Part shown: piece by piece, positions 12,635-17,251 of the stretch
Layout: each line of letters begins with the position of its first letter
Position numbering within the stretch: the first letter of the stretch is position 1
From: an uncultured Pseudomonadales bacterium
GTDB taxonomy: Bacteria > Pseudomonadota > Gammaproteobacteria > Pseudomonadales > Azotimanducaceae
Length of the DNA stretch: 64,000 bases
Reading direction: 5' to 3'
Assembly: GCA_958296025.1 (NCBI GenBank)
Contig: OY282430.1
Span: 1,860,001-1,924,000, forward strand
Program-made: the position numbers and the translations under genes
Notes under the pieces: generated by a model
Told to the model about the DNA's origin: nothing
Seen by the model: the letters and a program-made list of their open reading frames with translations, nothing else
Databases searched by the model: none

Positions 12635-12859
12635 TTCAGCCGCTCCGCTAGCGGACGCCGGTGACGGGGCGAATGATCAATCCATCTCCTGACCGACGCA
12701 GCAGGACTTCGTTGACGCCCTCAAATTTATGGGCTTTTGGAATGCTCACGGCTTGACTGCGGCCACTGGTGAAAAGCTTGGCGACGATTCCCATGACGGC
12801 CTCGGCTTTTCACCTTGGTGCGGGTATATCACGGGGATAGGCGTCGTGCAAGGCGTTCT

Positions 12860-12868
12860 GGTAGGCGT
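12860..12868. repeat. 9-bp target-site duplication, left copy
   Basis: GGTAGGCGT lies directly outside the left inverted repeat of the insertion sequence and is repeated exactly at 15002-15010, outside the right one. This is the signature of a transposition event. Confidence 0.9.
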
Positions 12869-12886
12869 CAGCAGTTCTCATTTTGG
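12869..12886. repeat. left terminal inverted repeat of the IS
   Basis: CAGCAGTTCTCATTTTGG, exactly complementary to 14984-15001; similarity stops after base 18. Confidence 0.92.
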
Positions 12887-12955
12887 GTGTTGTTCGCGGC
12901 TCCGGTCGAGTTTGTGGTGTTCGGTTGATGTCGGGTTGGGAGTGGGACGCGGAGT

Positions 12956-14245
12956 TCAGGGCGGCTGGGCGGCGGTACCGCCGGTAGCGAGCAGTGACAG
13001 GAGGTTGTTCCAGTCGGGGAACAGCCGGTATTCGGTGACGGTTCGCAGGTGTTCGAACAATCGGCGCCGGGTGCCGAGGCGCCGGCGGGCGCTCTGCCAG
13101 AGCGTCTCGGCGAGTTCGCAGGCGCTGTGGAGCGAGAAGGCGAGCAGGTTGAGGACGACCAGCACGCCGGCGAGGGTGTCGTTGCCGTGGCCGAAGTTGT
13201 GTTTGAGGTGGTAACCGTGCTGCTTGAGGACGTTGAAGGTCTCGTTCTCGATCTTCCATCGGGCGCGGGCGCAGTCGGCGAGTTCGGCGACGTTGTCGCG
13301 GTCGACGTCGAGGCTGGTGACGAAGGTGCCGCGGTGGGTGACGGTGCCGTCGGGTCGCGCGCTGGTGATCTCGAGCCAGTTGACGCGCAGGGCGTCGTCG
13401 CCGTCGCGGATGGGCAGGTCGGTCATCCACCGGTAGCGGTGGATGCGCCGGCGGGCGCCGGCGCCGGCGGTGGCGCGGCGGGTGGGCGGGCGGATGCCGT
13501 CGAGGTGCTCGCAGAGGGTCTTGTGGCTGGCCGGCTTGGCGGTGAGCAGGAAGTCGCCGCCGCTGTCGAGCATCGCCCGGCAGACGGGCTGGCAGGCGTA
13601 CAGGTCGTCGCCCAGGTAGACGGGGCGCAGTGGCGCGCAGCGGGTTCCGTGGCGTTGCAGCCAGCGCTTGGCCGCCTCGCGTTCGCAGTCCTGCTTGGCG
13701 GCGCCGTCGCGGGGCGCCACGAACTCCGGGGGCAGCGGCAGCGTGCGGGCGTGGCCGGGCGCCACCAGGGTGGCGGCCAGCATCTGGTGGAAGTGCTCCG
13801 TGGCGCCGTCGCTGCGCTTGCGGGTCGCGCAGTGCGGGCAGTGGATGCTGCGCGAGCGGAAGAACTCCGTGCCGTCCAGGGCGACGAGCAGCCGGCCGTC
13901 CAGGCGGCGCATGGATGCCAGGGCGCCGTGCGCGTCGAGGTCCGCGGCGATGGCGTGGAACTCGTCGTCGAAGTGCGCCGTCGGCACGCCGTCGAGCAGT
14001 TGCCGGATGTGGTTGTCGCAGGGGATGCGGGCCAGGCCGAACAGCGTGTGCGCGTTGGACCGCGTGCGTCCCTCGGCCAGCGCGCGCTGATGCGCCAGGA
14101 ACGACGGCGACTGCATGAAGAACACCGACAGCGCCGCCATGGCGACGTCCGCCATGGCGTACCGGCGGTTGCGGCCGCGACGCGGGTCCGGCAGCCCGGC
14201 GAAGCACGCCCGGAGCCGTTCCAGATGGCCGCCGAGGAGCTTCAC
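12956..14245 (-). CDS. DDE transposase of the insertion sequence
   Basis: 429 aa beginning at a GTG that overlaps the methyltransferase stop (GTGA). Likely catalytic residues are Asp in LVALDGTEFFRS, Asp in PVYLGDDLYAC and Glu in WKIENETFNVLKQHGYHLKH, which ends in the conserved NFGHG. An N-terminal LPDPRRGRNRRYAMADVAMAALSVF is typical of the group. I recall such proteins being labelled ISNCY or IS4-like. A Cys-x2-Cys (IHCPHCATRKR) sits between the first and second Asp. The open frame upstream of 14245 is an out-of-frame read of the methyltransferase gene and not part of the protein. Confidence 0.88.
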   Translation of the reverse strand: MKLLGGHLERLRACFAGLPDPRRGRNRRYAMADVAMAALSVFFMQSPSFLAHQRALAEGRTRSNAHTLFGLARIPCDNHIRQLLDGVPTAHFDDEFHAIAADLDAHGALASMRRLDGRLLVALDGTEFFRSRSIHCPHCATRKRSDGATEHFHQMLAATLVAPGHARTLPLPPEFVAPRDGAAKQDCEREAAKRWLQRHGTRCAPLRPVYLGDDLYACQPVCRAMLDSGGDFLLTAKPASHKTLCEHLDGIRPPTRRATAGAGARRRIHRYRWMTDLPIRDGDDALRVNWLEITSARPDGTVTHRGTFVTSLDVDRDNVAELADCARARWKIENETFNVLKQHGYHLKHNFGHGNDTLAGVLVVLNLLAFSLHSACELAETLWQSARRRLGTRRRLFEHLRTVTEYRLFPDWNNLLSLLATGGTAAQPP

Positions 14246-14928
14246 GGCGGCGCCTGCGCTTCCACTGCCATGACCGCGGCCAGCACCGCCAGGCGCTCCG
14301 CCGGAGGCATCGCCCGGTAGCGCCGGCCCCAGCTCGCCGCCTTGCGCTTGACCGTCTGCCGGTGCGTGAAGTCCCGCCCCGCGCACGACGCCCAGTGCAC
14401 CCGGTCCGGTTCGAAGTTGAACCACACCTTCTCGGTGACCACGCCCGCCTGGTTCATCACCTGCAGCGCCACGCTGCGCCAACCGCAAAGCAGCTCGTCG
14501 TAGAGCGCCGACGGGTACCCCGACACCATCACCGCGCACGGCAGCCCCTTGAGCAGTTCCAGCAGCGCCGCGTGGTCCGCGTCCCCGTAGTCGTGCCGGT
14601 AACGGCGCCCGGACTTGCGCGCCGCGCGCAGGTACGGCGGGTCGCTGTAGACCAGCTCCGAACCGTCGAACGCGAAATCGGCCAGATACCCGTGGCAGTC
14701 CGCGTTGACCAGTTCCACCGCATGGCCGCACTCGAATGACGACAGCGCCCGCGCGTCCAGGTCGATCCCGATGTTGCGCAGCGCCGCCGGCTTGCGCTTC
14801 ATCACCGCGCCCCCGCCCAAGTGCGTCTCAATGTACACCGCGTGCGGCGGCATCAGCGCGACCAGCGCCTGCCACAGCCCCGACGACGCCTTCGATCCGA
14901 ACCACGGGTTGCCCATGGCCCGCACCAT
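14242..14928 (-). CDS. D12-class N6-adenine DNA methyltransferase (IS passenger)
   Basis: About 228 aa of the Dam/D12 family. The N-terminal GNPWFGSKASSGLWQAL (motif X-like), the AdoMet loop YIETHLGGGAVMKRKP, and the catalytic SDPPYLRAARKSG (DPPY, motif IV) appear in the order expected for alpha-class adenine methyltransferases. The gene lies wholly inside the IS, and its stop overlaps the transposase start. No cognate restriction gene is present. It may methylate the IS or host DNA to tune transposition or to evade restriction; that is inference. Alternative starts are GTG 14934 and ATG 14916. Confidence 0.88.
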   Translation of the reverse strand: MVRAMGNPWFGSKASSGLWQALVALMPPHAVYIETHLGGGAVMKRKPAALRNIGIDLDARALSSFECGHAVELVNADCHGYLADFAFDGSELVYSDPPYLRAARKSGRRYRHDYGDADHAALLELLKGLPCAVMVSGYPSALYDELLCGWRSVALQVMNQAGVVTEKVWFNFEPDRVHWASCAGRDFTHRQTVKRKAASWGRRYRAMPPAERLAVLAAVMAVEAQAPP

Positions 14929-14983
14929 AGGCACAACGTCCTATGCTGTCAAGCCTCCCTCAATCCGGCGCTATGTAAAAATG

Positions 14984-15001
14984 CCAAAATGAGAACTGCT
15001 G
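14984..15001. repeat. right terminal inverted repeat of the IS
   Basis: CCAAAATGAGAACTGCTG, the exact reverse complement of the left repeat. Confidence 0.92.
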
Positions 15002-15010
15002 GGTAGGCGT
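15002..15010. repeat. 9-bp target-site duplication, right copy
   Basis: GGTAGGCGT directly after the right inverted repeat, identical to 12860-12868. Confidence 0.9.
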
Positions 15011-15033
15011 AAAGCTAGTTGTTCGGAAGACGC

Positions 15034-15990
15034 TCAGTGAAATGCGCCTAGGCGATACAGGCGCCAGACCAAGGGCCAAGCGAACAGCAGGGGGTAGCGG
15101 CGCTGCCGTTCTGTGGCTTTGAGGCGAATGCCGGAGTGCCGTTCGAGCTTCCAGAGCATGTAATCCACTGGGGCCGCAAAGGTCAGGGCGGATTTGACGA
15201 TGCGCAGCGCGGACAAGGCTTTGCCCGTCGCCTGTACCAGGGCCCATGGCGGACGATGGCGGAGGACATTCGGCTTGGCGGTGTTGCGGAAGTCCTGCAA
15301 CAGCTGGTCGTAGTAGGCTTGGTTGGCGGCGTACAGGGCCTCGCGTTTGCTCGGTCGTTCGGAGCGCATTTCGGCGGCGTAAGTGCGGGCGAACACTTCC
15401 CGCCAAAAATCGACGGGGCGCCCCGATGGCGGATTGCGCCCGACCTCGGCCATTAGGCGTTGCGCGGAGTGGGCGGCTATGGCCGCCAGGCGCTGGCGGA
15501 TTTCCTCGTTGCGGTAGAAGACGATGCGGTTGGGTTGGGCGAACCTCGCCCAAAAGTAGGGGTGCAAGTCCAACGTTACGGCCTTCAGCAGTTGATGGGT
15601 GCGCAACACGCTGATTTTGGCTCGGCGGCCGTCAACGGCAAGATCATGGACGTTGGGCGGCAACAGGCCGCCCAGCCAGCGATGCAGGCGCGGCCTTGGC
15701 GGGTATTCGTCAAGCAGAACGTACAGGTCTGGCATGGCGTCGGCCACGCCGCGCAGATAGGAGCCATAGAGGATAACAGCGTCCAAACGCTCCCCGTAAC
15801 GCTCCACCAGCTGTTCGGCAAACTTGGCGATTAGAGAGCCCTCAGCCGGGGAGCGCGAGGGGGGAACCCCTCGCATGAAAGAGCCCTCAGCCGGGGAGCG
15901 CGAGGGGGGAACCCCTCGCATGAAAGAGCCTTCAGCCGGGGAGCGCGAGGGGGCACCCCTCGCATGAGGAGACCCTTGTTCACGAACCAT
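15034..15990 (-). CDS. nucleotidyltransferase-fold protein with repeat insertion
   Basis: About 318 aa. After the repeat-derived N-terminus, LIAKFAEQLVERYGERLDAVILYGSYLRGVADAMPDLYVLLDE matches the minimal nucleotidyltransferase fold (GS..RG...D.Y). The rest is alpha-helical with no motif I recognise, and the target is unknown. The start at 15990 overlaps the stop of the upstream CDP-alcohol phosphotransferase gene by 11 nt, which suggests a shared operon. Residues 7-51 are three 15-aa units (GS-FMRGVPPSRSPAE type) from the tandem element at 15836-15970. Removing them would join MVREQ directly to GSLIAKF. Homologues should lack this block. Confidence 0.7.
   Translation of the reverse strand: MVREQGSPHARGAPSRSPAEGSFMRGVPPSRSPAEGSFMRGVPPSRSPAEGSLIAKFAEQLVERYGERLDAVILYGSYLRGVADAMPDLYVLLDEYPPRPRLHRWLGGLLPPNVHDLAVDGRRAKISVLRTHQLLKAVTLDLHPYFWARFAQPNRIVFYRNEEIRQRLAAIAAHSAQRLMAEVGRNPPSGRPVDFWREVFARTYAAEMRSERPSKREALYAANQAYYDQLLQDFRNTAKPNVLRHRPPWALVQATGKALSALRIVKSALTFAAPVDYMLWKLERHSGIRLKATERQRRYPLLFAWPLVWRLYRLGAFH
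15836..15970. repeat. three tandem copies of a 45-bp palindromic element
   Basis: Units at 15836-15880, 15881-15925 and 15926-15970. The first two are identical and the third differs slightly. Each holds the hairpin GCGAGGGG, loop GGAA or GCA, CCCCTCGC (8-bp stem). 45 bp equals 15 codons, so the array keeps the host gene in frame and is translated. A further partial copy in inverted orientation is at 17022-17051. Confidence 0.9.
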
Positions 15991-17251
15991 AGGCGCGTCT
16001 GGTGGAGGCGAAGGTGCGGTAGGCGCGAGGATGCCGTTGGGCTGCATCCGACTGCGCCAGCCAAGATGTGAGGGGGCCGCTCCTCAGCCGTATGCAGCAA
16101 GCCCACATCAAGCGCCAGAGCAGCACTAGAGTGGAAAGCAGGGTCCAAACGGCCAGTAGCCAGAAGCCCGCAACGGGCGCGCCGGCCAGCCAACCGAGGG
16201 TAAGCAGCACCAAGCAAGGGTTGCGGCGGGCGGTGAACAGGCGGAAGTAGGCGTCGAACGGGCGCCAAGCGAAGAGGGTGGCGTCGCCAAGGCCGTGGAA
16301 GGCGCCCTCAATGACCCGCCCACCGACGTAGCCGATGAGGATGCACCACATCAGGGCTGCGAAATCAAGGCCGAAAAGAGGCTCCAAGGGCAGCAGAGAC
16401 AGGCCCCAAAACCAGTACCAGAAAGGTGGATGCAGGATGTCCATGCCGTGGTCCAGCGCATGGCCGAACTGGCTTGATTGGACGGTGACCCGGGCCAGCT
16501 TGCCGTCCACCGTGTCGAGAAAGGTCATCATCCAGGCCAGTGCCAAGCCCAACCCGTACGAACCGGCGAAAAACAGCCAACAGGCGGCCAGCATCAACAG
16601 AAAGCCGGCGACGGTGACGCTGTTCGGAGAGATGCGTTTGTTGGCGCAGAACCGCACGGCGGCCTTGGCCGGCACAGGCCACCACCACTTGGTTACGAAA
16701 TCCGTGACGCCCTTGTAGGAAGCGCCGTAGAGGCGGTCCTCCAAGGCGGGCGCCGACTCGGTGGTGATGGGTTCGAGCAGCGGCGCCGCCGCCTTGCGCA
16801 GCTTGCCCTCGAAAGCGCCCAAGTCCTGCGCCCTGATGCGGGGAAAGCCATCCGCCCCGTGGCCGGATGCGTTGCTCAACAGGGCGGTGGCGGCCAGAGC
16901 GTCGCTGGCGGCGACAATGGCGGCCGCAGGCGTTTCGCCATCCATCAGCACAACGCCAGCGGGCGCTGGTCTTTCCTTGGCGCTGGTGATGTTAGTCTCA
17001 TCATCGGGGGCAGGTGGCGACGGGTGCCCCCTCGCGCTCCCCGGCTGAAGGGTCTCAATTAAACTACTGAGAGTCCGTGGTTCGTACAGGTAGTCTTGCC
17101 GCACCATTAGAATGGGTTCGGTGGCGTCGGCCGGCGGCCTGTCTGGCGCATCGGTCACGCCGACTTCGGCCATTTGCCGGGATAGGCGCTCTTGGCTGGT
17201 CAGGCCCCACAACCGCACATCGGAGGCACCTAGGATGACTGCGATGGTCAT
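15980..17251 (-). CDS. CDP-alcohol phosphatidyltransferase with N-terminal NTase-like domain
   Basis: 423 aa from the ATG at 17251. Residues 1 to about 170 start MTIAVILGASDVRLWGLTSQ and resemble a degenerate MobA-like nucleotidyltransferase domain. The C-terminal half is a membrane CDP-alcohol phosphotransferase with the signature DTVDGKLARV, eight residues, then GHALDHGMD, and about six membrane segments. This two-domain plan recalls inositol-phosphate cytidylyltransferase/DIPP synthase enzymes, but the N-terminal NTP motif (GxGxR) is not evident. It likely makes a phosphodiester-linked lipid or polyol. Residues near 70-85 (LQPGSARGHPSPPAP) come from a palindromic element inserted in frame. 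A GTG at 17305 would add 18 residues. Confidence 0.8.
   Translation of the reverse strand: MTIAVILGASDVRLWGLTSQERLSRQMAEVGVTDAPDRPPADATEPILMVRQDYLYEPRTLSSLIETLQPGSARGHPSPPAPDDETNITSAKERPAPAGVVLMDGETPAAAIVAASDALAATALLSNASGHGADGFPRIRAQDLGAFEGKLRKAAAPLLEPITTESAPALEDRLYGASYKGVTDFVTKWWWPVPAKAAVRFCANKRISPNSVTVAGFLLMLAACWLFFAGSYGLGLALAWMMTFLDTVDGKLARVTVQSSQFGHALDHGMDILHPPFWYWFWGLSLLPLEPLFGLDFAALMWCILIGYVGGRVIEGAFHGLGDATLFAWRPFDAYFRLFTARRNPCLVLLTLGWLAGAPVAGFWLLAVWTLLSTLVLLWRLMWACCIRLRSGPLTSWLAQSDAAQRHPRAYRTFASTRRAYGS
17022..17051. repeat. partial inverted copy of the palindromic element
   Basis: These 30 bases are the exact reverse complement of 15929-15958 in the tandem array. The second hairpin arm is missing. 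The copy lies in frame inside the CDP-alcohol phosphotransferase gene and is read in the opposite orientation to the array in the neighbouring gene. Confidence 0.88.

Follow-up and report, generated by a model that had tools for sequence, protein, structure and literature searches.

An insertion sequence with a Dam-like methyltransferase gene ahead of its transposase and a promoter repeat that accompanies the methyltransferase

Here we examine a stretch of 64,000 nucleotides (the window) from an uncultured Pseudomonadales bacterium of the Azotimanducaceae (GCA_958296025.1, contig OY282430.1, positions 1,860,001 to 1,924,000) and, within it, an insertion sequence (IS) that carries the gene for a Dam-like DNA methyltransferase (MTase) in front of its transposase gene. 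The IS exemplifies an MTase-transposase operon that recurs and has a promoter site of its own: relatives of its MTase, at 60-73% identity, lie upstream of the unrelated transposases of IS66 and DDE_5 elements and of a Tn5-type remnant, and an inverted repeat at the operon promoter follows the MTase and not the transposase or the host. Judging from these sequences, we put at about even the chance that the MTase uses this site to repress its own operon, so that a burst of transposition on arrival would give way to self-limitation. The features of the element, in window coordinates, are as follows (G and L numbers are our handles for genomes and loci).

12860..12868, plus strand: 9-bp target duplication GGTAGGCGT, left copy (script).
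12869..15001, minus strand (both genes): insertion sequence, 2133 bp (direct reading, repeat search, seven chromosomal copies).
12869..12886, plus strand: terminal inverted repeat CAGCAGTTCTCATTTTGG at the transposase-3' end (repeat search and script).
12956..14245, minus strand: transposase, 429 aa, GTG start, ISAs1/ISNCY-like DDE (weak Pfam matches).
14242..14245, minus strand: GTGA overlap of transposase start and MTase stop (same GTGA in L009 and L240).
14242..14916, minus strand: Dam-like (D12 class) predicted adenine methyltransferase, 224 aa (motifs, conserved ATG start, predicted fold).
14924..14929, minus strand: -10 element TATGGT, after a 17-bp spacer (promoter search).
14926..14945, no strand: 20-bp inverted repeat, CATAGGACGTTGTGCCTATG as read on the minus strand, in the spacer and overlapping the -10 element; candidate operator or methylation site.
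14947..14952, minus strand: -35 element TTGACA (promoter search).
14984..15001, minus strand: terminal inverted repeat at the promoter end, matching CAGCAGTTCTCATTTTGG at 18/18.
15002..15010, plus strand: 9-bp target duplication GGTAGGCGT, right copy, 9/9 identical to the left.

Direct reading bore out the architecture given in a preliminary description of this DNA, namely perfect 18-bp ends, a perfect 9-bp duplication, two minus-strand genes whose stop and start overlap at GTGA (14242-14245), and the D12 motifs HLGGGAV and SDPPY in the first of them; the MTase gene comes first in the operon, followed by the transposase gene with its overlapping translation start. The host chromosome (3.9 Mb, one contig) holds seven full-length copies that are ~100% identical, and since each has its own, different, perfect 9-bp duplication, the structure is not due to chance and the IS appears to have expanded recently in this host. 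One or two substitutions separate five of the six other copies from the window copy, the sixth (L004) carries a 1-nt deletion within its transposase gene, and the MTase protein is identical and intact in all seven. Terminal inverted repeats, a transposase and insertion at multiple sites, with duplications at 7/7 copies, thus identify an IS that is present in several copies, was recently active and has a DDE transposase of an ISAs1/ISNCY-like kind. We use 'ISAs1-like' as a label only, because the window transposase stays under the Pfam cut-offs (PF13808, 26.3 bits against 32.3; PF01609, 19.9 bits against 23) and matches no transposase model in NCBIfam, and so was not placed in the ISAs1 family; the related transposase of L240 passes PF01609 (26.5 bits, cut-off 23), and a plasmid homologue 37% identical to the window transposase is annotated ISNCY.

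The MTase lineage recurs directly upstream of transposase genes in ISAs1-like, IS66 and DDE_5 elements and in a Tn5-type remnant, and the order, MTase then transposase on the same strand, holds in every locus with an identified transposase. The two genes overlap at GTGA in the window, L009 and L240 and at ATGA in L011; otherwise the MTase stop is followed by a transposase start within about 60 bases. Matches to the MTase were found in 16 of the 274 class-level genomes sampled, of which the closer ones were followed, and strong matches in 5 of 398 phylum-level genomes, of which G324 was examined for neighbours (both counts include the host). A genome-contig scan gave eight MTase loci (L009, L010, L011, L012, L014 and three cut by contig ends); an IS66-type transposase or its remnants adjoin the MTase in L010, L011 and L014, the assignment in L011 resting on a weak PF13007 match (E 0.0055), and no transposase was identified within 1.3 kb of the MTase in L012. 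G247 has a 2679-bp element with an MTase and a DDE_5 transposase (PF13546, 3.2e-13) in nine copies, of which eight are near full length, and 7-bp duplications were seen at three of these eight; it also has one MTase-IS66 copy (L173). In the Tn5-type remnant of G239 (PF02281, 3.8e-8) the MTase is frameshifted and the transposase lacks its N-terminal part; the pair lies between perfect 22-bp repeats, of which the right one overlaps the end of the transposase frame. An MTase remnant adjoins an IS66 C-terminus in G120 (L178). No transposase of these kinds accompanies the partial MTase of G196 (L179) or was seen in the stretches fetched for G324 (L241) and L084, none was found beside the MTase of G208 (L021, 45%), and L239, L042, L013, L015 and L016 are cut by contig ends where a partner gene would lie. 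The MTase of L197/L239 has lost the catalytic DPPY and its reading frame. When the ends of the different ISs were compared by eye, CTCA recurred in three of four, which we do not count as beyond chance.

G234 carries three MTases, two in MTase-IS66 loci (L174 and L175) and one at a contig end; one of the two loci has perfect 14-bp ends (GTAACTGCTCACCC, at 683-696 and 2919-2932) and no duplication. In both, one stop codon (L174, 1455-1457; L175, 1502-1504) and a few codons separate MTase and transposase, which are in frame, and stop-codon readthrough would yield an MTase-transposase fusion.

A maximum-likelihood tree of 46 MTases, with a midpoint root, splits 15 IS-clade MTases (two with partner unknown) from 28 phage MTases by a 95/83 branch; the Tn5-type sequence and L239 (partner unknown) fall on the phage side near that branch and are not firmly placed. 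The ISAs1-like MTases form one group (99/89). On this tree the IS66-type pairing takes five changes, and transposase type changes at least three times.

A search of 12800-15100 gave a single promoter-like site, TTGACA-17-TATGGT (14952-14924), and within its core lies the inverted repeat CATAGGACGTTGTGCCTATG, which fits the pattern CATAG-N10-CTATG, sits 38 bp inside the promoter-side end of the IS and is unique in the window at up to 1 mismatch. Because the -35 element begins 36 bases upstream of ATG 14916, the MTase-transposase message is probably leaderless. We compared the regions upstream of 13 IS-clade or IS-borne MTases, leaving out L014 and L178 (start not found), L239 (start lost), L176 and L240 (N-terminus lost) and L015/L016 (equal to L009). 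TTGACA is exact in 12 of the 13 (L180 reads TTAACA), and TAG-N10-CTA, judged by eye, occupies the same promoter position in 11, spanning four transposase kinds. The full CATAG-N10-CTATG is exact in the window, L009, L013 and L180 and has one mismatch in L177, L011 and L173.

Across the host genome the exact repeat occurs seven times, each time inside one of the seven IS copies (reversed-pattern control, 0), so there is no host regulon at this site. All four perfect sites in G279 lie at IS copies (three at contig ends), the single one in G870 is at the MTase, four of six in G324 flank its MTase, one of two in G239 is at the MTase, and G280, G867 and G889 have no perfect site; the reversed pattern gave 0 matches in G279, 1 in G870, 6 in G324, 5 in G239, 2 in G247, 2 in G280, 0 in G867 and 2 in G889. 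In 28 dereplicated phage loci, 25 sites with at most one mismatch fall in about 19 kb beside the MTase (28 x 680 bp, entered as 18,480 bp in the script) and 12 in the 265,297 bp elsewhere, a density about 30 times higher beside the MTase, and 11 of these loci have at least one such site there. Arrays of two to five repeats, again counting sites with at most one mismatch, flank the MTase in some phages and in L074, on one side or on both; in L074 / L241 (G324) and L103, where the arrays lie on either side of a phage-type MTase gene and most repeats are about 26-29 bp apart, they resemble a cooperative operator or iteron array. The Sphingomonad plasmid pHSL3 (L251) has perfect CATAG-N10-CTATG sites at 1245, 5268, 5298 and 5326, three of which form an array beside a helix-turn-helix (HTH) regulator gene; its MTase promoter has none.

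Judged from the upstream regions, the half-site also tracks the MTase subgroup (CATAG or CATCG). Plasmid and genome MTases with an N-terminal YPGGK have CATCG-N10-CGATG in place of CATAG-N10-CTATG, with TTGAC seven bases upstream of the site in eight of the nine YPGGK rows that have it (the ninth, L262, came to light only in the de novo count below). Genome YPGGK loci, checked after the plasmid observation, have the CATCG site in three of five cases (L023, L075 and L076; none in L021 and L077). A de novo count found perfect 5-N10-5 repeats in 35 of 62 upstream regions, with a shuffled mean of 9.2, and 10 was the highest of the spacings 0-20. The half-sites at this spacing are CATAG (12), CATCG (9) and CACAG (4), every other occurring once; CATCG is found in 9/11 YPGGK rows and 0/51 others, and CATAG and CACAG among the 51 only (for CATCG and YPGGK, Fisher p 3e-9, a value that ignores relatedness). 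A stricter CATCG pattern had six perfect matches in six genomes (control 0), two of them at MTase promoters (G404 and G551), one about 800 bp upstream of an MTase (G208) and three elsewhere, and it misses the L023 site (G015). In the plasmid loci L260 and L256, the YPGGK-type MTase gene is followed by an overlapping gene annotated as an 8-oxoguanine DNA glycosylase, a possible two-gene unit.

The window MTase itself belongs to the D12 class and is predicted to methylate adenine at N6, having a motif I glycine loop (HLGGGAV), a motif IV SDPPY and a Dam-like predicted fold; key residues are invariant, with DPPY intact, in 24/24 aligned sequences. We moved its start from GTG 14934 to ATG 14916 (MGNPWFGSK), because intact close relatives start there and GTG 14934 falls inside the promoter. 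The protein scores 17.1 bits on PF02086 (cut-off 22) and matches the phage DNA methyltransferase family phrog_56 at 2.3e-23. A PDB sequence search with the MTase profile returned DpnM alone (E 0.004), and the closest PDB fold to the AlphaFold model (mean pLDDT 77.8, pTM 0.69), whose C-terminus is a helical, basic region, is E. coli Dam (E 5e-6, TM about 0.5). Dam control at GATC as in IS10 and IS50, to which the preliminary description had appealed, was rejected for the ends of this IS: GATC is missing from ends and promoter, the MTase reaches 25.3 bits on the Dam family TIGR00571, far under the curated cut-off of 114.85, and no host protein exceeds that cut-off. A second, longer Dam-like frame of 317 aa lies just left of the window (G000:C1:1859064-1859849; L208, L242) and has 61 bits on the Dam model, under the cut-off.

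In 3/3 pairs among the window, L009 and the shortened L240, the MTase is under stronger purifying selection than the transposase (NG86 dN/dS 0.21, 0.27 and 0.31 for the MTase; 0.43, 0.36 and 0.36 for the transposase in the same pairs). The same description had argued against a chance, functionless capture of the MTase, and while its appeal to Dam fell away, this part gains support from seven intact copies of seven, dN/dS of 0.21-0.31 and a lineage paired with several transposase kinds. It had named two observations that would speak for such a capture; MTase-less copies with identical ends were not found in the host genome, and broken motifs in most copies were not seen either, 7/7 host copies being intact.

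Relatives of the same IS kind point to the MTase as an addition. L009 in G279 has the same layout and GTGA overlap, ends CAGCAATTCTCATT, and 87% (MTase) and 82% (transposase) identity to the window. Both genes are present in L240 (G867), where the promoter and the first 20 MTase residues are lost; both are decayed in L177 (G280) and L176 (G277); L013/L198, L015 and L016 are cut by contig ends, and G274 has a 3' fragment only. Among 150 genomes from the family of the host, a protein search at E 1e-20 gave a transposase relative in 13, and an MTase lies upstream in all relatives of at least 64% transposase identity whose upstream side is present (G000, G279, G280, G277 and G867). A cousin IS in G889, with a 37% identical transposase, has ten full copies of a 1657-bp element with loosely similar ends (CAGCGATTCCCGCTAA and CAGGTTCTCCCGCTAA) and exact 9-bp duplications in five of six copies inspected (8/9 in the sixth). 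No more than about 170 bp lie between the element end and the start of its transposase frame, which leaves no room for an MTase; G889 is not among the 15 genomes with a match when 206 genomes were searched at family level for the MTase, and the cousin has no CATAG-N10-CTATG site. Since this cousin lacks the MTase, the gene is, on this comparison, an added module acquired by one branch of the IS family.

The simplest candidate reader of the repeat would be the MTase: a transposase is an unlikely binder because four transposase kinds share the site, and a host regulator is unlikely because the host has no other perfect site. In the mechanism that we propose, the MTase would act on the promoter repeat by methylating or binding it and so block RNA polymerase. 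In a naive cell that the IS has just entered, the promoter would be free, and MTase and transposase would be made in a burst; as the MTase accumulates, it would shut down all IS copies in trans and thereby limit transposition and copy number. Operator and MTase would then form a self-contained module, taken up repeatedly by IS lineages and used by phages and plasmids for the MTase alone, and the MTase may act as a brake on several kinds of IS. We are more tentative about a broader form of this proposal, and lean somewhat towards doubting it, in which MTase and operator would be a portable self-limiting cassette, picked up by ISAs1-like, IS66, DDE_5 and Tn5-type ISs, that couples transposition to the epigenetic state of the cell, with a burst in an unmethylated newcomer cell and silence once the copies are marked.

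Several observations weigh against self-repression by the MTase. The window enzyme does not have the fused N-terminal HTH seen in known repressor MTases. L010 and L012, the two outside the 11/13, lack the left half-site, the outer bases of the repeat vary in other IS66-type and G247 elements, and the perfect site of G247 is not at an MTase (0/1). Beside the MTase, 17 of the 28 phage loci have no site with at most one mismatch, and perfect repeats of these types are missing from the plasmid promoters of L251, L252, L254, L257 and L264 (one-mismatch sites occur in L254, and the 5.7 kb of L251 holds perfect sites at other places). AT-rich genomes yield chance sites, as the reversed controls in G324 (6) and G239 (5) illustrate. 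Other even spacings were raised in the de novo count as well (8: 30/62; 14: 25; 4: 24; 6: 23), partly because the palindrome extends inward, and CATCG needs three changes on a quick tree, two of them forced, so few that shared ancestry could explain the covariation of half-site and MTase.

Among other explanations, the MTase could be an anti-restriction passenger, marking the IS and its carrier replicon against restriction in a new host, while the operator keeps a potentially toxic MTase low once established. Homologues, all below 60% identity, do occur on 178 plasmid records, 130 of them conjugative, and on phage contigs, and orphan MTases of mobile elements with protective roles are reviewed in PMC12707154. 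We nevertheless think this unlikely: the seven copies are chromosomal, an IS cannot transfer alone, and the account leaves unexplained the shared promoter and the overlap with, or closeness to, unrelated transposase genes. Methylation might instead act on transposition itself, hemimethylated ends or promoter timing the jump after replication, as Dam does through the promoters of IS10, IS50 and IS903 and of the IS4/IS5 families (PMC9296519). Without a host Dam above the cut-off the IS could bring its own, and the candidate operator is 38 bp from the promoter-side end; the repeat is, however, in the promoter and not in the ends, the ends of the different ISs share no convincing motif by eye, and GATC is missing, which leaves this account improbable.

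It seems distinctly improbable that a host regulator binds CATAG-N10-CTATG and that the MTase has nothing to do with the control of the site. A dimer-type repeat overlapping the -10 element is what HTH repressors use, and the site array of the Sphingomonad plasmid L251 stands beside an HTH gene, but the host genome has no perfect site outside the IS and similar sites accompany the MTase in unrelated hosts, some phages and some plasmids. Neutral hitch-hiking, with the MTase caught once and carried without function, would suit the cousin IS that reached ten full copies without an MTase, the decay of both genes in L176 and L177, and the loss of DPPY and frame in L197/L239; set against dN/dS of 0.21-0.31, DPPY intact in 24/24 and four transposase kinds, it is barely credible.

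Elsewhere in the window, a 45-bp unit is repeated three times in tandem at 15835-15967 (96% match), in open frames, and a further, incomplete copy lies about 1.1 kb from it on the opposite strand (17017-17056).

ISs with passenger genes, such as transporter ISs, are known, and IS reviews list methyltransferases among the passengers. The window IS resembles these in having an extra gene inside its ends; unlike the passenger of a transporter IS, its MTase gene lies upstream, overlaps the transposase start and owns the promoter, and the same MTase lineage recurs with different transposases. With ISAs1/ISNCY-like ISs it shares a DDE transposase with weak PF13808/PF01609 matches and a 9-bp duplication, and it differs in the MTase upstream in the same operon and in a family that is not firmly assigned. 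Our literature search found nothing on a methyltransferase inside such ISs or on the CATAG-N10-CTATG repeat, which is weak evidence of absence as most subscription reviews were outside the search.

Small ISs are usually thought to be restrained by weak promoters, frameshifts, antisense RNA or host Dam. If self-repression by the MTase is true, an IS with its own methyltransferase and promoter switch would have self-contained epigenetic control of copy number. The repeated recruitment of one MTase lineage would make the benefit of an accessory gene to an IS directly testable, and the repeat is a candidate regulatory site for one family of orphan methyltransferases found on phages and plasmids. 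These orphan D12 enzymes (phrog_56; the pB1 IncP methylase beside Upf31.0) are homologous to the window MTase, at about 42-60%, and some of them have a promoter repeat of the same type; unlike it, they are not directly followed by a transposase in the loci examined, and their YPGGK group has the CATCG half-site.

Among modification enzymes, AhdI and LlaDII MTases are autoregulated by promoter methylation, and EcoRII, Ecl18kI and SsoII MTases by a fused repressor domain, according to PMC12707154. The window MTase would likewise limit its own promoter, and it is unlike them in having no partner nuclease, no fused HTH and a transposase downstream. In Tn3-family elements, as PMC7157771 describes them, TnpR is an element-encoded repressor proposed to give a burst on invasion followed by repression, and toxin-antitoxin pairs are embedded in the transposition modules. 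The burst and shut-off proposed here, and the several acquisitions of an accessory module beside transposition genes, are alike; what differs is that a DNA methyltransferase and small ISs take the place of resolvase or toxin-antitoxin pair and Tn3. Altogether, the window IS appears to combine two known kinds of system, the IS with an accessory gene and the autoregulated MTase, and what would be unusual is the proposed mechanism that joins them.

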